The translations under genes were made by a program, and so were the position numbers. Below are positions 54,598 to 64,000 of a stretch of 64,000 bases of DNA, piece after piece. The DNA is from Bacteroidia bacterium (GTDB lineage: Bacteria > Bacteroidota > Bacteroidia > Flavobacteriales > Flavobacteriaceae). A model generated the notes under the pieces. The model had not been told where the DNA came from. It made no database searches and was given only the letters and a program-made list of their open reading frames with translations. Every line of letters starts with the position of its first letter. Position 1 is the stretch's first letter. The stretch covers positions 1 through 64,000 of the forward strand of contig JAUIKY010000009.1 of the NCBI GenBank assembly GCA_030430535.1. The letters are read 5' to 3'.

Positions 54598-56370
54598 TCA
54601 TACAATTTTCATTTTCTGCAATAAAAATGACGCATTCATATTTTTACAAACTCCTTTTTTAAGAACATAATCGAAATGAAGTTCGTCGTTGATGATTTTG
54701 GCATCAAAAAAATAATTTTTTACCGCTTGCAATTCTTCTGCAATCTCACATAAGCTTAAATCGTGTGTAGCAATGATTCCGGTAGCCTTTGATGCTACCA
54801 GTTTTTCAACAAACTTTCGTGACCCCATAGCTTTATCGGTGCTGTTGGTACCTTTTAAAATTTCGTCCAACACAATAAAATAGGGCTCATTTTCGAGGGC
54901 ATCAACAATGTATTTTAAACGGGTAAGTTCTGAAAAGAAATACGAACTCTCATCGGCTAACGAATCGGTAGTCCGCATACTGGTAATCAATTTTACGGGC
55001 GAATATCGGCTCGACTTGGCGCAAACGGGCAAGCCTATATTAGCCATAACAATATGCAACGACACCGTGCGCAAAAAAGTACTTTTCCCAGCCATATTGG
55101 CCCCGGTTACTATAAAAAACTGCTCATTATTAATGGTTAAATCGCTATCGATTCGCTTTTCTTTTTTCAATAGCGGATGCCCCAAACCTTTAGCTTCAAT
55201 AGTGGTTGTATTATTGGTTATTTCAGGAAATACGAATTCGGGATGATTAAAAGCAAAATTGCCCAACGAATTGTAAGCATCAAAAAAAGCGACCACTTCA
55301 AACCAATCGGCCACCTTGTCACCATACCGAGTTATCCATTTTTCGATACGACAACTATTTTTCAAATCGGTTAAAAACCAACCATTACCAAAAATGGCTC
55401 CAATAAAATTGTTTCTGTTATCTAAGGCATCTAAAGCCCTTGAAAAACGTTTAAAAATAAGCGAAGCTTTTTCATCTTTCAATTGGATTTGCTGCTGCTT
55501 TTCTTTCAATAATGCCGAAGAAAAAGAACCATTTTCAATTAAATATAACAATGAAGCATATTGACGAAAGGTATCCCGAATTTTATCGGTATTTGATGCT
55601 AAAACATTAATCTTTTTTAAATATATCCCAGTAATGGCCAAGCCCAAAACCAACCAATAACCTATAATGCCAAGGTTATTCAAAACTCCGAAAACAGCCA
55701 AACCGAATAGTAGCACTGTACCCAAGCCGAACGCCAGGGGCAACCATCGCATAACTTTTGGCAGAAACGATTGATGTTTTTTAAACCAAGTGGTAATTTG
55801 GCTGGCAGGGGTTTCCACTTGAACCAAACTCGAGGTTGCCGCAAACTTTTGTCGCCACTCCGGATTTGTGCTCAATTCTTTTATAGCCTTTTGCCGTGCT
55901 ACAATTCCGTTGGTATTATTGGCCTTTAATTCATCGGCTAATCTTTTAGCTCCTTCGGCACTCGTAGTGCGGTTTATATATTGAAAGAACGAGCCGCGAC
56001 CAAACAAATCGATATCCAAACTGTAAAAATGGTTGGTATCCTGAAACTGTAAACCTTGCTCCCTATCATAAAAATGCCCCGACGCTATTTTCAGTTCCGT
56101 TTCGTTAATATCCACCAAAGCTTTGTTGAGCGTTCGTTGCCTCTTAACATCTGAATATTTTGAAAGAAGAAAAACAAAACCGGCGCCACCTAAAACAGTA
56201 ATAGCCAAAGCTACTTGCCAATTATTGAAAAACCCATAAATGCCAACCGCGGTTAGAACAAAAACCAACAAACGCAAAGTACTCAACAGCAATATCTTTT
56301 TCTGGTATTTTTTTAATTGCAATTGATAGGTTTGCGAATGAGCTTTATAATATTCTAAAGGATTATCCAT
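54598..56370 (-). CDS. Membrane-anchored MutS-family ATPase
   Basis: A 590-residue protein with a MutS C-terminal ATPase and no mismatch-recognition domain. Walker A GANMAGKST near 422-430, Walker B FIVLDEILKGTN near 500-511 and the ATHD switch are complete. The N-terminal half has four hydrophobic helices in two pairs (about 28-45, 50-68 and 209-226, 232-250) that would anchor it. Between lie MutS core-like helices with a linker of about 160 residues. MutS relatives of this kind are common in Bacteroidota and are not the mismatch repair MutS; their role is unknown. The bordering genes are the small membrane protein and the giant T9SS protein (101 bases away). Confidence 0.8.
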   Translation of the reverse strand: MDNPLEYYKAHSQTYQLQLKKYQKKILLLSTLRLLVFVLTAVGIYGFFNNWQVALAITVLGGAGFVFLLSKYSDVKRQRTLNKALVDINETELKIASGHFYDREQGLQFQDTNHFYSLDIDLFGRGSFFQYINRTTSAEGAKRLADELKANNTNGIVARQKAIKELSTNPEWRQKFAATSSLVQVETPASQITTWFKKHQSFLPKVMRWLPLAFGLGTVLLFGLAVFGVLNNLGIIGYWLVLGLAITGIYLKKINVLASNTDKIRDTFRQYASLLYLIENGSFSSALLKEKQQQIQLKDEKASLIFKRFSRALDALDNRNNFIGAIFGNGWFLTDLKNSCRIEKWITRYGDKVADWFEVVAFFDAYNSLGNFAFNHPEFVFPEITNNTTTIEAKGLGHPLLKKEKRIDSDLTINNEQFFIVTGANMAGKSTFLRTVSLHIVMANIGLPVCAKSSRYSPVKLITSMRTTDSLADESSYFFSELTRLKYIVDALENEPYFIVLDEILKGTNSTDKAMGSRKFVEKLVASKATGIIATHDLSLCEIAEELQAVKNYFFDAKIINDELHFDYVLKKGVCKNMNASFLLQKMKIV

Positions 56371-56419: not shown

Positions 56420-56443
56420 AAAAAAGCCCTGAAAAACTCAGGG
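56420..56443 (-). terminator. Terminator of the giant LamG/T9SS gene
   Basis: CCCTGA (56427-56432), loop AAAAC, TCAGGG (56438-56443); on the minus strand followed by a T-run. Confidence 0.75.
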
Positions 56444-56471
56444 TCCGTTTAATATTGAAGGCATCAGGGAT

Positions 56472-59400
56472 TTAATCCACCACTATCTTTTTGGTCAGTA
56501 CGGCATTGTTCTCGGTCCTCAGGCATACCACATAGGTGCCCGTGGCCAAATTGTTCAACCGGATGCCGCTCTCCAACTGGGCGTTTGACACGCCACTGAG
56601 GTCCAGCACTTCACGCCCGCGCATGTCCACCACCGCTAAGCGGGCAACAGCGCTGTCCATATTTTTGGCATAGAACGTTTTGGAAGGGTTTTGGTAATAG
56701 GTGCGGTTTTTGGTTCCGGCCACTTCCTCTGCACCCAAGGCCTGTTGTTCGCTCTGGAACACCACCTCAAGCCTGTCCTTGAACACCCCGGCACCAGATG
56801 TGAAGCGGTACGCACCGCCACCCGTAAGCTCGAAGTACTCGCCCGTCTGGCGGTCGTGCAGGTACACCCTTTGGCTTTCCCTGAGGTGCTCCATATCCGA
56901 TATCTTTAGCTCGAAGGTATTGTTGCCCGAGGACCTCAAGTTTAAAGGCAGCACCTTGTCCTTGGCTATCTCTCCATAGGCCTGCATCACCATATTCTTC
57001 CCGTCCAGCGACAGGTTCAGATCGTTGTTGTTGGTCTCCGTACTCTTGGCATCGTAGCCATAGTCGAAGCCATCGGTGGTATAATCGCTGAAACCCATCA
57101 AAAGCTCCCTCCTGGTCTTGGGGCCCGTTACCGAGCTGAACTCCAATCGTATCTTCTGCATCGTACCGGTCGACGCCTCCTGCTTTGCCTTTTTTCCGTC
57201 GGAAGACTTTGAGAACGTAGAACCATTATCGTAAGTGCCATCGGCATCGGCTTCCTTGACGAACACGCGCTGGCCGTTGTTGAACTCCACCTGCCCATCG
57301 GCCAACACCTCCACCATGAAGCCCTGCCCCACGGGAAGGTACCTGGTGGGCACGATCGTGCCGTCCTGCGAGCCATTGTTGGCACCGTAGAATCCCTCGA
57401 ACTGGTACGCACGGCAATAGCCCAGTTTGTTCACCTGGGCATAGCCGCCCTGGTACTCGTTTAAATAATGTGAATTTCCGCCCCATTGTTGCCACAGCTG
57501 CAGCGTGCCGTCTATTACCCCCGCATTGTCGTCGATGAACTTATGGATATCGATTGCCGAGGCGTAGGGGTTGCCCAGAAGGTATTCCGTCTTGGACTGG
57601 TTGGGCACGGAGCCCGCTCCGCCCTTGTCCGTTACATCCAACAAAATGGTGCCGTTATTGGGCTTGCCCTCAAAAATATATTGTTGTTCCACCCCGGCAT
57701 TCCCGGTCCCTTTTTGGGTATAGCCCACGCCCGGGTTCAATGATGTGGATGGCGATATGTTCGCCCAGTCCCAGTACGTCAGCCCATTGATGTACGTGTA
57801 GAGCCACTGGGTACTGATTTTACCATTGCCTGTTTGGCTTGAAGTAAATATACAGCCTGATCCCGCTTCATCTTTGAGCATGTTCAGTCTGAATGCCGTA
57901 TTGTTGGCATTGTGCCCCGTATTGTTGTCCGAAAGCGCCGTAACGCCCGTAGAACCCACCGGTGAGGCCCAATAGTTGTACCTGTACGGGCTTGCCTGGC
58001 CTTCTTGCCTTCTTAAAATCTTGCCCTCGGCCGAGGTCACCAGATCACTGTTCTCGGTCTGCAGCAGTTGGGAATCGCCCATTAAATCCAATGTGCCGTT
58101 CAGCTCCAGGTACCAGCTGTTCTCTATCAGGTTGTCGCCGTTTACCGTTAGGGTTTTGTCCGCGTCTATTATCAGACCCAAATGGCTGTGCGAACCCGTA
58201 GTGCTTATGTTGTGCGATATCTGGACGATGCTCCAGTCTTTGTTATGCGACGCATTCTCGATGTCCCATACATCGCCGTGCAGCCATGTAGACTCGCTGC
58301 ACCAGCAGCCGTTAGAGGACGTAACGTAGGGCATAGGCGCGGTTTGTGGCTGTACCGTGGTGATGTTGTGCAGGCGTGCCGAAAGACCATTGCCCGAATA
58401 ATCGGTGGTCGTCATGTTCACGATGTCCGTCATGGGGTAGTAGGCCTTTAAATTTGACCATGGGATTACCGCCGATGTGGCCGAATCGGATACCGGTTTG
58501 GGAATGGTACTGCCCTGCACCGTGCCCGAATTATTGTTTATCTCTTGGTAGACCGTCTTGCGCAGCTGGTCCTCGGTCAGCGCCACGTCAAATACGCGCA
58601 CCTCGTCTATCGCTCCGTGGAACGGCAGGGCGTGGTCCAGTGCCCTGGACCCGATGGTAAAGCTATCGCCAGAGGCATAGATGCTGCCGGAGAGCGAACC
58701 GTCGTTGCTCGAACCGTGGAGCGCGCCGTTTACGTAGGCCCTGAGCTTGGCCGAGGCCGAGGCGCTGTCGTACACCAGGGCCACGTGCACCCAGACGTCA
58801 CGGTCGAACTTCGCCGTTGGCGCGATCGTCGCATCGTTAACCTTGAACCACAGCTGCCTAGAGCTGTGCGCCTGGATGTGCAGGTTCCCGAAGTTCGCCA
58901 CATAGCCCGAGCCCGAAAAGCCCGCGTCAAGCTTTATCCAGGCCATTACCGTCGCTGCTGTAAGCCCGCCAAGGTCCAGGGCGCTGTCCAGGTAGTCGTC
59001 GACACCGTCGAAATCGATCGTCGCAGACGATGGCGGGTTCACGTCGAATAGGTCTCGGTAGTCCAAATCACCGCCAGCGAACAAATCGCCGTCGGCGTCG
59101 GGTAAAACCGAAAGGTCAGTAGGGTTATCAATATCATCATTTGGGTCATTCGGGTCATAAGGGGTCGAGCCCTCAAAAAGAATATCCAAACCATCGTTAT
59201 CGGTGTCTGAAAACACTATGATTTCATCTGCCATACCATTTTCTTCGATATCCAACAAGCCATCATCATCGCTATCTAAATCAAGAAAATCTGGCATTAA
59301 ATCCCAATCTGTAAAGACAACATCTATCCCACTACCATAAACAACATCTATTCCTGTAGAAGCTACAACTCCAGATGGCGTAATATAGCCTAAGGTAGTT

Positions 59401-60650
59401 TGCCCTTCTACGTTATCAGGAATTCCGTCGTTATCACTATCAATATCTAAGTGATTATAAACCCCGTCATTGTCAAAATCTTCACCCGTTACTATGGTTA
59501 AAGAATTGGCGTTGAAATCTAAAAATTCACATTGTGTGAACGACATGGCATACTGCCTTGTTGAAGAACCAGAAGATGTTTTTATAGCTTGCATTCTCAT
59601 GGTAAACGAATTCCCTATAAACTGGTAATATGCTCTTAACCATGACAATGTGGAAAATCCGTTTACCGTGGTATCTCCAGAAGTCATTTCAATATTATTC
59701 GAACCTAAATCCGTCACGGTTAAATCTGAAGGGTTATCAATACCATAAGCCGCGGGATTATAGTAAATAACCGACTCTAACAAACTTGAAGTACCGTCGC
59801 AATCCCAAGTAATACCATTCACCCTAAAAATATTTGTAGAAGGCGTGGCGGTACCTGAATCTACAATGGTAAATTTAAAAGTAGCTCCTGGAGTTCCCGT
59901 TCCGGAGAAAGTAAGTGTAGTTTGTAAATAGGGCACATTACCCGTAGTATCATCATCAATATTCGCAATGGTTGTATTGGTGAGTTCTGTAATTTCCATA
60001 AGAACATCATACCCTGTAATAGTGTTTCCAAACCTATACACGGCACCAACAGCCCCTTCTGCTCCAGTACTTACAGAACTATCGTAGTATCCGTTTTCAA
60101 AATTTAAAGGTGGGAGTGTGCATTCAAATCTATTTTCCCCTAAATTTTCAATGGCATCGGGTATGCCATCACCATCATCATCGTAATCTAAGTAATCGCC
60201 AACACCATCTTGATCTAAATCAGGAATGTTGTTACAGGTGGAATCTCCTCCCGACACATCGAAATAAATGATTTGGCCAGAAGTTGTTGCTCCAGCCCCA
60301 TTGTCGTTGACCACTTGCACACCATCTACCTCTACTTTTACGCTTCCGCCGTCCCAACCGTTGTTGGCGACATCGTATAATTTAACGTAGTAATTTGTAC
60401 CGTTAGGAACACATCCTAAATCGTACTTTACGCTATACCGATCTGTAGAAGTAACTTGACTTGAAGTGTAACACTGCGAATCGTCGCACAGGGTAAGTAA
60501 TAAATCGTTAGCCGTATTATAAAGTTCAACTTTATGCTCGTAAGACTGTTTAGGCCATTTAACCCTCACCTTTATCGGTGAATTTTGGGCGTTGCCTAAA
60601 TTAAAAACAAGGCATACCACGAGTAGGTGAAAAAATAATTTTGTTTTCAT
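56472..60650 (-). CDS. Giant T9SS surface protein with calcium-binding repeats and LamG domain (GC-chimeric)
   Basis: A 1392-residue secreted protein with ATG at 60650; a promoter box overlaps the earlier in-frame start at 60674. Signal peptide (KTKLFFHLLVVCLVFNLGNAQ), then a domain with repeated DxDxDG calcium loops like thrombospondin type 3 (DLDQDGVGDYLDYDDDGDGIPD and DSDNDGIPDN-like) to about residue 510, a LamG/ConA-like lectin domain about 540-720, a region of repeats with WLHGDVW and NGTLDLMGDSQ, and a T9SS sorting domain at the end (YYQNPSKTFYAKN, DMRGREVLDLSGVS, LATGTYVVCLRTENN). From about residue 517 on, at roughly 59100, DNA turns sharply GC-rich; the first part is AT-rich. It shares its last two thirds with the next gene. 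Likely surface adhesin. Confidence 0.85.
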   Translation of the reverse strand: MKTKLFFHLLVVCLVFNLGNAQNSPIKVRVKWPKQSYEHKVELYNTANDLLLTLCDDSQCYTSSQVTSTDRYSVKYDLGCVPNGTNYYVKLYDVANNGWDGGSVKVEVDGVQVVNDNGAGATTSGQIIYFDVSGGDSTCNNIPDLDQDGVGDYLDYDDDGDGIPDAIENLGENRFECTLPPLNFENGYYDSSVSTGAEGAVGAVYRFGNTITGYDVLMEITELTNTTIANIDDDTTGNVPYLQTTLTFSGTGTPGATFKFTIVDSGTATPSTNIFRVNGITWDCDGTSSLLESVIYYNPAAYGIDNPSDLTVTDLGSNNIEMTSGDTTVNGFSTLSWLRAYYQFIGNSFTMRMQAIKTSSGSSTRQYAMSFTQCEFLDFNANSLTIVTGEDFDNDGVYNHLDIDSDNDGIPDNVEGQTTLGYITPSGVVASTGIDVVYGSGIDVVFTDWDLMPDFLDLDSDDDGLLDIEENGMADEIIVFSDTDNDGLDILFEGSTPYDPNDPNDDIDNPTDLSVLPDADGDLFAGGDLDYRDLFDVNPPSSATIDFDGVDDYLDSALDLGGLTAATVMAWIKLDAGFSGSGYVANFGNLHIQAHSSRQLWFKVNDATIAPTAKFDRDVWVHVALVYDSASASAKLRAYVNGALHGSSNDGSLSGSIYASGDSFTIGSRALDHALPFHGAIDEVRVFDVALTEDQLRKTVYQEINNNSGTVQGSTIPKPVSDSATSAVIPWSNLKAYYPMTDIVNMTTTDYSGNGLSARLHNITTVQPQTAPMPYVTSSNGCWCSESTWLHGDVWDIENASHNKDWSIVQISHNISTTGSHSHLGLIIDADKTLTVNGDNLIENSWYLELNGTLDLMGDSQLLQTENSDLVTSAEGKILRRQEGQASPYRYNYWASPVGSTGVTALSDNNTGHNANNTAFRLNMLKDEAGSGCIFTSSQTGNGKISTQWLYTYINGLTYWDWANISPSTSLNPGVGYTQKGTGNAGVEQQYIFEGKPNNGTILLDVTDKGGAGSVPNQSKTEYLLGNPYASAIDIHKFIDDNAGVIDGTLQLWQQWGGNSHYLNEYQGGYAQVNKLGYCRAYQFEGFYGANNGSQDGTIVPTRYLPVGQGFMVEVLADGQVEFNNGQRVFVKEADADGTYDNGSTFSKSSDGKKAKQEASTGTMQKIRLEFSSVTGPKTRRELLMGFSDYTTDGFDYGYDAKSTETNNNDLNLSLDGKNMVMQAYGEIAKDKVLPLNLRSSGNNTFELKISDMEHLRESQRVYLHDRQTGEYFELTGGGAYRFTSGAGVFKDRLEVVFQSEQQALGAEEVAGTKNRTYYQNPSKTFYAKNMDSAVARLAVVDMRGREVLDLSGVSNAQLESGIRLNNLATGTYVVCLRTENNAVLTKKIVVD

Positions 60651-60671: not shown

Positions 60672-60679
60672 CAAAATTA
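60672..60679 (-). promoter_or_regulatory. -7 box of the giant T9SS gene
   Basis: Minus-strand TAATTTTG, 21 bases before ATG 60650; it covers the alternative start at 60674, which is thus unlikely. Confidence 0.5.
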
Positions 60680-60773: not shown

Positions 60774-63700
60774 TTAATTAACCACTATCTTCCTAGTAAT
60801 CAATTCGTTATTTTCAGTTCTTAAGCACACCACATAGGCTCCAGTAGCTACATTGCTAAATTGAATGCCTTGTTCTAATTCGGCACGTGTTACATCTTTT
60901 AATTCCAGAACATTTTGTCCGCGCATATTTATCAATGCAAAATGTTTTACCGTACTGTTTAATTTTTTGGCATAAAATGTTTTGATACTGTTTTGATAAT
61001 AGACAAAATGTTCTGTAGCCATCACCTCTTCAGCACTTAAGGATTGTGCTTCATCTTGGAACACAATTTCGAATCGGCTATTGAATACACCTGGTTCTGA
61101 ACTAAATTGATAGACTCCATCTTGTGATAGGTCGAAATACTCACCAGTTAAATTATCTTTTATGTAAATGGGTTGGTCTTCCTCTATATTTATTTTTTCA
61201 GATATTTTTATTTCAAATGTGTTTTTTCCAGACGATTTAAAGTTAAGCGGTACCACCTTATCGGCTGTTATAGAACTGTAGGCTTGCATGATCATGCCTT
61301 TTCCTTCGAGCGCTAAATTAAGGTCGTTATTATTCGTTTCGGTACACTTGGCATCATATCCAAAGTCAAAACTGTCTTTTGTGTAATTACTAAATCCAAG
61401 CAAAAGTTCTCGTTTGGTTTTAGGCCCCGATACAGAAGTAAACTCCAAACGGATTTTCTGCATCGCACTTTTTTCAACTTTTTCTTTTGAAGATTTGCTG
61501 GATTTGGTTGATTTTGAAAAGATAGCCCCCTGATCGTAAGTGCCATTGGCATCTGCTTCTTTAATAAACACTCGCTGCCCGTTATTGAACTCTACCTGTC
61601 CATCTGCAACCACCTCAACAACAAACCCCTGACCCACAGAAACGTAACGCGTAGGCACAATTACTCCGTATTTGGAATTATCAATATTTCCTTCTATTCC
61701 AACAAATTGATAAGCCCTACAACCGCCAAGCTTATTGACTTGAGCATATCCGCCTTGGTACTCATTTAAATAATGTGAGTTTCCTGCCCACTGTTGCCAC
61801 AAATAAATGGTTCCATCTATTACGCCCGCGTTATCATCTATAAACTGATGAAGATCTAAAGCCGAAGCATAAGGATTCCCTACCAAATATTCGGTTTTTG
61901 TTTTGTTGGGCACAGAACCGACACCGCCCTTATCTAAAACATCAATCAAAACAGTACCATTATTGGGTTTACCTTCAAAAATATATTGTTGCTCGTTGCC
62001 GGGACTACCTGTTCCTTTTTGGGTATAACCCACTCCTGGGCTTAATGGCGAAGTGGGAGATACAGCTTTCCAATCCCAATAGGTCACACCATTTTTAAAA
62101 GTATATAGCCAAGCCGTACTTATACTTCCATTACCTGAATGTCCTGAAGTAAAAGGCAAGTTGAAACCTGATTCATCCTTTAGCATATTCAATTTATAGG
62201 ATGTGTTATTGGGGTTATTATTAGAGGCATTATCATCTGTAAGTGAGGTAGCTGCCATTGTACCAATTGGTGCAGACCAGTAATTGTACCAAAACGGACT
62301 TGCAGTACCCTCTTGTCTCCTAAGCAATTTACCCGTTGCCGATGTTACCAAGTTGCTATTTATGGTTTGGATAAGCTGCGAATCTTCCATTAAATCTAAA
62401 GTTCCGTTGAGCTCAAAATACCATTCGTTCTTTACCTGGCGTGTTCCGTTTACCGTTAAGGTTTTACCGGAATCAATGAAAAGCCCCATGGTATTGATAT
62501 CACGATCAATAGAAATGTTGTTTTTTATTTGAACAATTCCCCATTCATTATCATCTCCTAAATTTGAAATATTCCAAACATCGCCATGAAGCCAAGTAGA
62601 GCTTGAGGCCCATGGTCCATCGGCGCTTGTTACATAAGGCAGTGGTGCTGTTTGTTCTTGAACTGAAGCACGATTATTTTTTGAATACCCGTTGATATTA
62701 TTACTTGAAAAATCGGAAGCCGCATTGTTAGCCATCGGGTAGTATCCCTTTAAGTTCGCCCAAAGCAAATTATCTGAAATATTAGAAGCGATTAATTTTC
62801 CACGAACCCCTGTTCCGCTTTGAACAATTTCCTGGTTCATCATTTGCCTTATCTGTTGTTTGCTAAGAGCCACATTCCAAATACGGACTTCATCTATATA
62901 CCCATCAAAACAATACTTGGGTGTATTTGGTGTACTGCTATCATAACTAGCTCCTAATAAAAAACTGTAACTATTATTTGAAGGCGCTGAGGCACTTACA
63001 CTTGTAGCAACCAACACGCCATCAACGTATAGTGACACCGTATTTCTAGTGTATGTTGCTGCTACGTGGTACCATTTATTATTCTCAATTTGGTTTGGCG
63101 AGATAATAGTTAGTACAGGTATGCCTGAATTATTATACCACAATAAACTAGGATACCCATTTTCCAATGTGAAATGATAGCCCCTAAGCGCCCCCAATGC
63201 AACATCACCTTTAGACATAATTGTTGCCTTGGCACTTGTAGACTTTTGTAGCACCCAAGCTTCTAGGGAAAAATTACGGGACAAATCATGATTATCGCCA
63301 AAATCTACATAATAGTCTGTTCCATTGAAATCAACAAAGGTATTCTCAACGCACAAAGTAAACGTACCGGTGTTACCAGAATAAGCATCTACAGAAACAT
63401 AATAAGTTGCTCCTGGGGTTAAATTAAAACCAGAAACTACCACATCATCATTATTGGTTGTATACCTTTTACTATCTACTTCAACCGTTCCTCCATCTTC
63501 CCACATAGCAACTTGCGTTCTTCGCTGGGTTCCCTTGGTTCCATCAACATCAACAGTAATGCTTATTTGTCCTGTTTCGGGTGCTGTAAACTTAAACCAA
63601 CGGTTATATTTTGGCCCACTATTGTTCCAATTAGAACCCGCTACTTTATCGGGAGTCGCTCCAGTGGTATCGTAAATGGCATCTTCCGAACAAGTATTTA

Positions 63701-64000
63701 TAAGCTCTGTAATATCGATAGCCCCTTCGTAAAAATCATAACTTATGCTATCCTTTACACATAAGGTAAACGTGCCATCATAACTTGAGTTATAAACATC
63801 AACGGACACATAATACACTTCACCTGGCGTGAGTGATGTATAACCCAAAATAACATCATCAGTATTGGAAACGTACCTGTTACTGCTTAACTCAGTAAGT
63901 CCGTCGGTTTCCCAAAGAGCTATTTGGGTGGTTTTTTGGGTACCTTTTTCTGCGTCAACATCAACGGTTACTTCAATTTGCCCAGTTGCTGGTGCTGTAA
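60774..64000 (-). CDS. Giant T9SS LamG surface protein, paralogue (5' truncated by window edge)
   Basis: At least 1074 residues; the frame runs off the right edge. Before the LamG part there are at least two near-identical modules of about 110 residues (LTPGxxYYVSVDxY...GTFTLCV), like bacterial pre-peptidase C-terminal (PPC) domains. LamG domain about 190-350 in the visible part (VDFNGTDYYVDFGDNHDL), then the region ASSSTWLHGDVW, NGTLDLMEDSQLIQT, GVGYTQKGTG and EQQYIFEGKPNNGT shared with the neighbour, ending with a T9SS sorting domain (YYQNSIKTFYAKK, NVATGAYVVCLRTENN). AT-rich like the rest of the window. Probable secreted, cell-surface adhesin. Confidence 0.85.
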   Translation of the reverse strand, partial: TAPATGQIEVTVDVDAEKGTQKTTQIALWETDGLTELSSNRYVSNTDDVILGYTSLTPGEVYYVSVDVYNSSYDGTFTLCVKDSISYDFYEGAIDITELINTCSEDAIYDTTGATPDKVAGSNWNNSGPKYNRWFKFTAPETGQISITVDVDGTKGTQRRTQVAMWEDGGTVEVDSKRYTTNNDDVVVSGFNLTPGATYYVSVDAYSGNTGTFTLCVENTFVDFNGTDYYVDFGDNHDLSRNFSLEAWVLQKSTSAKATIMSKGDVALGALRGYHFTLENGYPSLLWYNNSGIPVLTIISPNQIENNKWYHVAATYTRNTVSLYVDGVLVATSVSASAPSNNSYSFLLGASYDSSTPNTPKYCFDGYIDEVRIWNVALSKQQIRQMMNQEIVQSGTGVRGKLIASNISDNLLWANLKGYYPMANNAASDFSSNNINGYSKNNRASVQEQTAPLPYVTSADGPWASSSTWLHGDVWNISNLGDDNEWGIVQIKNNISIDRDINTMGLFIDSGKTLTVNGTRQVKNEWYFELNGTLDLMEDSQLIQTINSNLVTSATGKLLRRQEGTASPFWYNYWSAPIGTMAATSLTDDNASNNNPNNTSYKLNMLKDESGFNLPFTSGHSGNGSISTAWLYTFKNGVTYWDWKAVSPTSPLSPGVGYTQKGTGSPGNEQQYIFEGKPNNGTVLIDVLDKGGVGSVPNKTKTEYLVGNPYASALDLHQFIDDNAGVIDGTIYLWQQWAGNSHYLNEYQGGYAQVNKLGGCRAYQFVGIEGNIDNSKYGVIVPTRYVSVGQGFVVEVVADGQVEFNNGQRVFIKEADANGTYDQGAIFSKSTKSSKSSKEKVEKSAMQKIRLEFTSVSGPKTKRELLLGFSNYTKDSFDFGYDAKCTETNNNDLNLALEGKGMIMQAYSSITADKVVPLNFKSSGKNTFEIKISEKINIEEDQPIYIKDNLTGEYFDLSQDGVYQFSSEPGVFNSRFEIVFQDEAQSLSAEEVMATEHFVYYQNSIKTFYAKKLNSTVKHFALINMRGQNVLELKDVTRAELEQGIQFSNVATGAYVVCLRTENNELITRKIVVN

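Follow-up and report, generated by a model that had tools for sequence, protein, structure and literature searches.

Organization of the array and domain content of A1

The window analysed here (positions 1 to 64,000 of contig JAUIKY010000009.1, from a member of the Flavobacteriaceae) contains, close to its end, the gene of a T9SS-secreted LamG protein, hereafter A1, which is the first copy of an array (Table 1). The first-pass annotation had described two adjacent paralogues, and the adjacency holds, but the array comprises four copies and the neighbouring one, A2, ends at contig position 66671, outside the window. Copies of this array are named A1 to A4, and those of the corresponding array in a sister species of the same genus B1 to B4. 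The A1 open reading frame presents an alternative TTG start at 60674, and orthologues of its N-terminal part occur in several genera at 62 to 74% identity. Both the LamG domain (PF13385) and the type A sorting domain (TIGR04183) score above cut-off; in particular, the sorting domain reaches 32.8 bits with TIGR04183 (curated cut-off, 23) and 27.9 with PF18962 (cut-off, 27), which identifies A1 as a T9SS type A cargo protein. Compared to other T9SS type A LamG proteins (TIGR04183, PF13385), the domain make-up of A1 is the same in kind, and the surprise lies in its base composition.

Table 1. Array copies and parts of A1
Feature	Position	Strand	Description
Array copy 1 (A1)	56472..60650	-	T9SS-secreted LamG protein, 1392 aa; equal-length syntenic orthologue in genome G001
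A1 N-terminal part	59103..60650	-	Residues 1-516; GC3 0.33
A1 GC-rich cassette	56475..59102	-	Residues 517-1392; GC3 0.725
LamG domain	58563..59006	-	PF13385; residues 549-696 of A1
T9SS type A sorting domain	56478..56696	-	TIGR04183; residues 1319-1391 of A1
Array copy 2 (A2)	60774..64000 (gene ends at contig position 66671)	-	Cassette GC3 0.32
Array copy 3 (A3)	66835-69912		Beyond the window
Array copy 4 (A4)	70562-75394		Beyond the window

GC step inside A1

In 300-base windows, GC content is 0.51 to 0.62 over about 56550 to 59100 and 0.36 to 0.44 over 59100 to 60600, while GC3 is 0.326 up to residue 517 (window position 59102) and 0.725 from there on, the interval within 2 log units being residues 511 to 519 (59120 to 59096). 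The log-likelihood gain of this change point is 107, compared to a maximum of 10.7 in 500 permutations, which were tried at every fifth split. The abrupt change previously placed at about 59100 is therefore borne out by both the change point and the windowed GC, and the counts of 39, 22, and 23 G/C in 60 bases given with it proved exact. The genus background, i.e., 7211 windows of 150 codons from 679 ORFs (about 1.03 Mb) of one same-genus genome, has a mean GC3 of 0.379 (SD, 0.081), and A1 reaches 0.83; the 32 ORFs of at least 200 aa that lie in the window outside the array have a mean of 0.414 and a maximum of 0.479. The GC-richest stretch of A1 is the LamG domain, with GC3 up to 0.88. The DNA following the stop codons (84 to 163 bases) is not GC rich in any of the eight copies of the two arrays (GC, 0.23 to 0.32), and the stops of B1 and B3 are followed by about 50 identical noncoding bases.

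An assembly chimera, which the first-pass annotation had wished to see excluded, can be discarded, since B1, the syntenic gene in the single-contig genome of the sister species, carries the same joint; B1 and A1 share 90 to 98% DNA identity across residues 1 to 760, joint included.

Concerted evolution of the C-terminal cassettes

The C-terminal cassettes of the array copies are largely homogenised within genomes, whereas the N-terminal parts keep to separate orthologous lines. In the tree of the C-terminal part (48 rows), the eight copies from the two species are united in a single clade (100/99), and in some ten further genomes the paralogues cluster with one another, with exceptions. B1 and B3 are 99 to 100% identical at the DNA level over residues ~721 to 1392, where the GC3 of B1 is 0.35 to 0.55, except for the block 1001 to 1040, which has a GC3 of 0.80 and 98% identity to A1. 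Furthermore, the change point of A1 (residue 517; 511 to 519) coincides with the onset of the likeness between B1 and B3 (~515). A1 has at present no near-identical partner, A3 being at ~80%.

Residues 561 to 720 of A1 and B1, within LamG, have a GC3 of 0.72 to 0.88 and lie outside any identical tract present today; over this stretch B1 and B3 share ancestry and only 64 to 71% identity. It should be observed that this gap in partners, the GC-richest stretch having no near-identical copy now, counts against a reading by conversion.

Direction of the base changes

The polarised changes establish that the GC-rich state originated within the genus, on the line of the first gene, through an excess of A/T-to-G/C changes at all codon positions. 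In LamG, the branch leading to A1 and B1 has 65 AT>GC changes versus 4 GC>AT changes (15:2, 11:1, and 39:1 at positions 1, 2, and 3), and the stem shared with B3 has 37:1 at position 3; the LamG gain mostly predates the split of the two sampled species. The C-terminal part of A1 presents ratios of 27:9, 15:5, and 89:22 at the three positions, and this gain may fall before or after that split, the sister copy having been overwritten. Computed per opportunity, the excess has Fisher p values of 1e-10 for LamG of A1 and B1 and 7e-11 for the C-terminal part of A1, and of 0.0006 and 0.008, respectively, when positions 1 and 2 are taken alone. As a control, the A2 and B2 lineage shows 13:16, 6:6, and 8:8; per opportunity it has no AT>GC excess and leans the opposite way (p = 0.037), and an excess is likewise absent from the N-terminal part of the first gene (third position, 0.21 versus 0.18).

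A second case in Hyunsoonleella aquatilis

In Hyunsoonleella aquatilis, two copies (h1 and h2) are identical from residue 370 to 1189, with a GC3 of about 0.35 before the step and 0.76 after it, while a third, diverged copy (h3) has a GC3 of 0.38. The change point of h2 falls at residue 371 (369 to 390), i.e., at the first identical codon, and that of h1 at residue 343, 26 residues ahead of the identical tract; GC3 is already 0.47 to 0.60 in residues 331 to 390, around and before the tract start. In the C-terminal part of the pair, the AT>GC:GC>AT counts reach 83:2 at third positions and 41:9 at first and second positions combined, and h3 lacks an AT>GC excess per opportunity (40/125 versus 7/21). 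This GC jump is independent of the one in A1. Selection keeping the copies apart is an unlikely cause, as the Hyunsoonleella pair is both identical and GC rich.

Identity between copies and GC3 in other arrays and repeats

We surveyed 44 copies in multicopy arrays, measuring GC3 excess over flanking genes, counting copies with identical cassette ends once (such as the second copy in genome G176), and requiring at least 500 flanking codons per array. All 13 copies that have a partner identical at roughly 80% or above showed a positive excess, compared to 4 of the remaining 31, the 80% split having been chosen post hoc. The rank correlation between identity and GC3 excess was 0.50 over the 44 copies; without the three discovery arrays it was 0.38 (p = 0.028; 33 copies), or 0.52 by array (p = 0.039; 16 arrays). 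Homogenised copies were the higher ones in four out of four arrays that mix both kinds, three of which are discovery arrays. GC3 excess is thus associated with identity between copies across arrays, yet the LamG stretch 561 to 720 and two copies of genus g133 are enriched with no present partner (the latter being G322 6489, at +0.165, and the copy in G134, at +0.088), and the homogenised 180-base repeat L221 is unenriched, with no excess over its genome baseline (-0.007). Moreover, the L074 pair is only 0.03 above its flanks, with zero gain within its best tract.

Cassettes have a higher GC3 than N-terminal parts in 37 of 39 other genomes; however, N-terminal parts lie below the flanking genes in 31 of 32 cases and cassettes above them in 10 of 32 (p = 0.25), and we dropped this contrast as support because it reflects low N-terminal parts and not high cassettes. 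No GC3 difference was found between multicopy and single-copy genomes (p = 0.66); the variable that mattered is the identity between copies, not the copy number of the genome.

An excess is also seen in some, not all, unrelated homogenised repeats of the genus. In particular, a T9SS gene of G001 with leucine-rich repeats, the first in rank among 679 ORFs, has a GC3 of 0.64 inside its identical 564-base repeats and 0.22 outside, and in G002 a giant gene carries a 258-base repeat with a GC3 of 0.50 inside and 0.29 outside, while the short repeat L072, which lies away from clear genes, is GC poorer than its flanks. The repeat scan does not include the pair B1/B3, which lies in two separate stretches, and matches joining the two ends of the G001 contig were excluded, being taken for a circular overlap that had not been trimmed.

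GC-biased ectopic conversion as the proposed mechanism

The existence of GC-biased gene conversion in bacteria is disputed. We consider enrichment of the A1 cassette in place, through GC-biased ectopic gene conversion, the best explanation of these data, with a probability of roughly 65%. The concerted evolution that it includes is shown: the copies do exchange sequence, even though residues 561 to 720 of LamG in A1 and B1 show no present tract. AT>GC changes were fixed in excess at both synonymous and nonsynonymous positions, and a bias of repair towards G/C, inferred here from one genome per species, would be the other component. Besides the LamG stretch, several observations weigh against this explanation: A1 as a whole has no near-identical partner today, the g133 copies are elevated without one, the repeats L221, L072, and L074 show little or no enrichment, GC3 rises ahead of the identical tract in Hyunsoonleella, LamG transversions are strand asymmetric, and the DNA behind the stops is GC poor. 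According to this scheme, array copies would exchange sequence ectopically across the shared LamG-to-tail tract, heteroduplexes between copies would be repaired to G/C more often than to A/T, and repeated rounds of copying would raise the GC content of the shared tract, in opposition to the AT-ending codons that the ribosomal gene cluster prefers. As a more general statement, it is about an even chance that, in this group of bacteria, ectopic conversion with biased repair drives coding segments that are kept identical (cassettes of tandem secreted-protein genes and long internal repeats) to high GC, overriding codon preference and altering amino acids.

GC-biased gene conversion has been proposed for bacteria by Lassalle et al. 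2015 (PMC4450053), who related gene GC to intragenic recombination across species. As in that work, GC3 is higher where there is recombination, and AT-ending optimal codons are lost in return; different from it, the exchange considered here takes place among copies in one genome, and GC3 steps by about 0.4 inside single genes. The terms "paralog" and "ectopic" do not occur in that text. The arms of primate X-chromosome palindromes are GC richer than their single-copy flanks (PMC8981503), with GC-biased replacements; there, too, identity is kept by intrachromosomal conversion and GC is raised relative to the flanks, but those palindromes are mammalian, and the present case concerns bacterial genes, both tandem protein genes and internal repeats. 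Our literature search, conducted mostly outside subscription papers, retrieved no report of GC-enriched homogenised tracts of this kind and no paper joining gene conversion, T9SS, and paralog. If the proposal is true, such loci are natural recorders of bacterial GC-biased gene conversion; arrays and repeats offer a large contrast within genes and within genomes, with internal controls, which makes the question testable. They also warn against reading every abrupt GC change within a gene as horizontal transfer.

Alternative explanations

The first-pass annotation had read A1 as a mosaic due to gene conversion, replacement, or transfer from a GC-richer donor; mosaicism and conversion are supported (B1/B3, 99 to 100%), and a donor is not supported by trees or codons. 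Import of the LamG-to-tail cassette from a GC-rich donor, followed by spread or erosion through local recombination, would fit its composition and codon use, strongly unlike those of the host, its abrupt edge, and the LamG stretch that is GC rich with no present partner, and one copy converting the other would likewise yield the identical GC-rich tracts of Hyunsoonleella. However, the LamG part of A1 is sister to B3, followed by AT-rich copies of the first-gene type from Flaviramulus and Algibacter, and its C-terminal part nests among the eight copies that belong to the genus (rows below 52% identity to A1 for the C-terminal part, or 40% for LamG, were left out of the trees, except Hyunsoonleella, added by name). 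External homologues (n = 28) have a GC3 of 0.16 to 0.40; among 59 named loci obtained in a further pattern search, Hyunsoonleella alone is GC rich (0.71 to 0.77), the next being one metagenome-assembled genome at 0.46 to 0.50. Apart from the genus itself, the sole clearly GC-rich homologue found has 55 to 61% identity and lies elsewhere in the tree.

In the sampled collections, no whole-cassette match outside the genus exceeded 66 to 67% identity. The family search matched 140 of 397 genomes at 1e-60; the class search (395 genomes, 1e-120) returned only the window's own genome; peptide patterns in a named genome collection gave 18 stretches and no relative; and plasmids gave six weak matches, all below 60%. 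The AGG share of Arg codons in the A1 cassette is 0.43 (13/30), with CGN near the host share, and the ATA share of Ile codons is 0.42 (15/36), unlike a GC-rich Hymenobacter sample used as the one reference (AGG, 0.03; CGN, 0.92; ATA, 0.14); on these small counts, the codons look like host codons altered at third positions. A donor would, moreover, be needed twice, separately. Within the sampled genomes, where the relatives are same-genus and AT rich and the codons host-like, we reject this explanation, which we regard overall as unlikely.

It is also improbable that selection on GC-ending codons, expression, mRNA structure, or protein composition enriched the cassette with no involvement of conversion, although the gain sits in coding sequence and ends at the stop codon. 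The comparison with ribosomal genes advised in the first-pass annotation sets the cassette against the usage of the ribosomal gene cluster, which favours AT-ending codons (GC3, 0.284; correlation with the cluster ORFs, -0.44), so that the enrichment is independent of optimal-codon selection, Hyunsoonleella being judged against the G001 ribosomal reference. Cassettes A2, A4, B2, and B4 have the same domains and no GC gain, the bias extends to codon positions 1 and 2, and unrelated repeat proteins are enriched as well.

Causation could run in reverse, with GC-rich coding segments recombining or remaining identical more readily and homogenisation following GC, a reading compatible with the relation between identity and GC3 across arrays, which is an association only; we deem it very improbable, as the polarised changes indicate that GC was gained on these lines, A1 is the GC-richest copy with no near-identical partner, the homogenised pair B1 and B3 has a moderate GC3, and the initial gain would be left without explanation. 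A MutS-like neighbour (54598-56370) was set aside as a cause because 119 other loci hold no homologue of it at 1e-60. Finally, strand-specific mutagenesis is unlikely over a tract of 2.6 kb: LamG transitions are strand symmetric, with 26 A>G and 24 T>C changes, although the 12 A>C and 3 T>G transversions are asymmetric.

The GC-rich cassette and its genomic setting

The protein of the gene under study, A1, joins an N-terminal part (N-part, residues 1 to 516), with stretches that we take to be calcium-repeat-like, to a cassette running from the LamG domain to the T9SS tail (residues 517 to 1392). The GC mosaic described by the first-pass annotation was confirmed, GC3 stepping from 0.326 to 0.725 at residue 517 (window position 59102); cassette GC3 is 0.72 in A1, 0.32 in A2, 0.50 in A3, which is partly GC rich at residues 841 to 1200, and 0.34 in A4. 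An assembly chimera, raised there as an alternative, is ruled out by the matching array (B1 to B4) of the independent, single-contig, same-genus genome G001, where B1 matches A1 at 90 to 98% DNA identity per 40-codon window over residues 1 to 760, joint included, with a LamG GC3 of 0.75. G002, a third genome from this genus, gave distant matches only (28 to 35%).

Features discussed in this section, with their coordinates
Feature	Location	Strand	Remarks
A1	56472-60650 (to 60674 from TTG)	minus	1392-aa protein; copy 1 of the four-gene tandem array (A1 to A4 share one contig)
A2	60774-66671
A3	66835-69912
A4	70562-75394
LamG domain	A1 residues 549-696		PF13385
T9SS sorting tail	A1		TIGR04183
MutS-like ATPase gene	54598-56370		~100 bases separate it from A1's GC-rich end
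Hairpin and T-run	56420-56471		terminator-like; 3' of the first and third copies in both species
radA	L012 15672-17030 (contig C27 75672-77030)		borders the array opposite the MutS-like gene
Leucine-rich-repeat T9SS gene, G001	L227 1678-4331		identical 564-base units
Giant T9SS gene, G002	L032 8482-18001		at least 17 near-identical 258-base (86-aa) units
Paralogue pair, G176	L073, 799 and 7561 onwards		~2100 aa each
Single copy, G322	L104, 6489 onwards

The same MutS-like and RadA genes flank the array in G001, and its genomic place seems old because, among 119 loci of other genera, 86 have a radA homologue. For the MutS-like gene, kept in G001, a search at 1e-60 across these 119 loci gave no homologue, and the gene's position beside the GC-rich end of A1 is probably a coincidence.

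Origin of the cassette and direction of base change

The annotation's further suggestion of a cassette from a GC-richer donor was not supported, tree placement and searches of the sampled genomes both speaking against a foreign origin. In the LamG tree (48 rows), A1 and B1 were joined by B3 (100/93) and then by AT-rich Flaviramulus and Algibacter copies, whose order differs between two trees; in that of the C-part (the cassette portion used beside LamG; 48 rows), all eight A and B copies formed one clade (100/99), with A1, A3, B1 and B3 grouped (100/100). These groupings were confirmed with 56 and 101 rows, and an N-part tree (11 rows) placed A1 and B1 among gene-1 orthologues from other genera. 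The family search gave matches at 1e-60 in 140 of 397 genomes (best external identity, 67%), and named genomes yielded 59 loci with cassette homologues (at best 66% over the whole cassette), all titled as Flavobacteriaceae genera or as unclassified Flavobacteriaceae or Flavobacteriales; judged by these relatives, the window belongs to the Flavobacteriaceae. Closer single parts included an Algibacter MAG N-part (80%) and an Algibacter fragment of 353 C-part residues (71%), both AT rich.

It is highly likely that the GC content of the cassette rose in place. The A1+B1 LamG branch carries 65 AT>GC against 4 GC>AT changes (269 AT and 160 GC sites), and the stem with B3 is also biased at third positions (37/54 versus 1/15), while B3's own LamG branch is unbiased (6/27 versus 10/35). 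In the A1 C-part the counts are 131 and 36 (882 AT and 717 GC sites), compared with 27 and 30 in A2+B2, 12 and 20 in A4, 25 and 14 in B4, 24 and 11 in A3, and 12 and 11 in B1/B3. Per-site rates are needed, raw third-position counts being misleading where GC sites are few: the gene-1 N-part gives a raw 23:2, yet equal rates (0.21 and 0.18). The cassette bias is common to codon positions 1 and 2, and therefore amino acids also changed.

The GC jump in Hyunsoonleella aquatilis (L136) is an independent replicate. Its tandem gene-1 type copies h1 and h2 are identical over h1 residues 370 to 1189, then 88 to 99% identical per window to the end; before the step their GC3 is 0.34 to 0.36 and after it 0.76, against 0.38 in the diverged third copy. 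The step begins at a different protein place than in A1: that of h2 (371) coincides with the first identical codon, that of h1 (343) lies 26 residues earlier, and GC3 over residues 331 to 390 is already 0.47 to 0.60 in both. The pair falls apart from A1 in a six-row clade (98) with the third copy, two G322 copies and one G134 copy, the closest row to the third copy coming from G322. C-part changes (AT>GC:GC>AT) number 83:2 at third positions, and those at positions 1 and 2 together number 41:9; the third copy, as control, has equal third-position rates (40/125 and 7/21).

Homogenization and GC content

Gene conversion, also proposed at first pass, was borne out, within limits, as homogenization (concerted evolution) of the paralogues. 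B1 and B3 are 99 to 100% identical at residues ~721 to 1392 and on through the terminator-like hairpin after the stops, ~90% at 521 to 560, and only 64 to 71% at 561 to 720. Because GC3 in this identical tail of B1 is 0.35 to 0.55, except for block 1001 to 1040 (0.80; 98% identical to A1), a once GC-rich B1 tail was probably overwritten by conversion. Paralogues cluster by genome in the 48-row C-part tree for G072, G046, G176, G348, G170, G214, G135, G172, G150 and one G210 array; the pair from G164 and part of the G324 copies are separated there. In larger trees, certain copies from G135, G169, G348, G322 and Seonamhaeicola likewise have their partner in a different genome, as does the third Hyunsoonleella copy.

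Among 47 pairs examined, six arrays had a tract of at least 97% identity, with GC3 above flanking genes in all four arrays having flanks in that comparison; the L074 tract was not above its own gene. Among arrays that had flanking genes and two or more copies (44 copies in all), the amino-acid-controlled GC3 excess over flanks was positive in 13/13 copies with a partner at ~80% identity or more, a cut set post hoc, and in 4/31 others, copies of one array being non-independent. When the arrays from which the idea arose were left out, the excess occurred in 7/7 versus 3/26 copies and in 4/4 versus 1 or 2 of 12 arrays (Fisher, 0.003 to 0.008), and identity and excess were rank correlated (copies, 0.38, p 0.028; arrays, 0.52, p 0.039). 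The excess within arrays was +0.39 for the pair and -0.006 for the third copy in L136, +0.03 and -0.036 in L074, +0.11 for B1/B3 and -0.04/0.00 for B2/B4, and +0.28/+0.13 for A1/A3 and -0.11/-0.085 for A2/A4. The G176 paralogues have near-identical tails of ~900 residues, with GC3 of 0.31 there and 0.15 to 0.17 elsewhere.

Repeats within a locus, of 150 bases or more and at 95% identity or above, were scanned in 179 loci (3.27 Mb), over half of them fetched for holding the cassette; three of the places were new repeats in genes unrelated to the array. GC exceeded the flanks in 13 of 14 intervals, two by just 0.01, and in 7 of 8 places, without amino-acid control; the eighth is a short repeat outside clear genes, GC-poorer than its flanks. 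In the G001 leucine-rich-repeat gene, GC is 0.49 to 0.53 in repeats versus 0.25 to 0.30 at its own ends and GC3 0.64 versus 0.22 (+0.24 over baseline), its two ORFs ranking first and joint second of the 679 background ORFs; one 563-base spacing that splits the frame into these is a frameshift or a sequencing error. The G002 giant gene is GC rich in its homogenized, presumably HYR-like, units only (GC, 0.54 versus 0.41 in the flank; GC3, 0.50 versus 0.29; +0.11 over baseline). A 180-base repeat of G001 exceeds the remainder of its gene (97 codons) in GC3, but not baseline (-0.007).

Codon selection and proposed biased conversion

Codon selection is an unlikely cause. ORFs of the G001 ribosomal cluster have a GC3 of 0.284, which lies 0.075 below baseline once amino acids are controlled for, and the codon check proposed by the annotation showed cassette use running opposite to them (correlation, -0.44 for A1 and, against the G001 reference rather than its own, -0.52 for Hyunsoonleella), the two cassettes correlating at 0.86. 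In the passages of Lassalle et al. (PMC4450053) on this point, loss of AT-ending preferred codons is expected under biased conversion, not under selection.

The Arg AGG share is 0.43 (13/30) in A1 and 0.46 (11/24) in the Hyunsoonleella cassette, with CGN near the host share; Ile ATA, which has no silent route to gain G or C, was kept (15/36 and 13/52).

Homogenization, AT>GC bias and their association are observed; GC-biased ectopic conversion would be their link to the GC rise, with a probability of roughly 0.65 as its cause, and heteroduplex mismatches between copies would be repaired towards G/C. Against its simple form, the A1/B1 LamG stretch and the copies of the genus of G322 and G134 are GC rich without a present partner; one might guess at relics of lost partners or of between-strain exchange. 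In the G322 copy at L104, which lacks a near-identical partner in its genome, GC3 steps at residue ~900 from ~0.23 to 0.5-0.65.

Ribosomal protein L2 was not found in the window's assembly, rated 98.8% complete, probably through an assembly gap. The first ~25 kb of G001 contig C1 (L030, L131, L132, L210) recur as its last ~25 kb at 99 to 100% identity, which looks like an uncut circular overlap.
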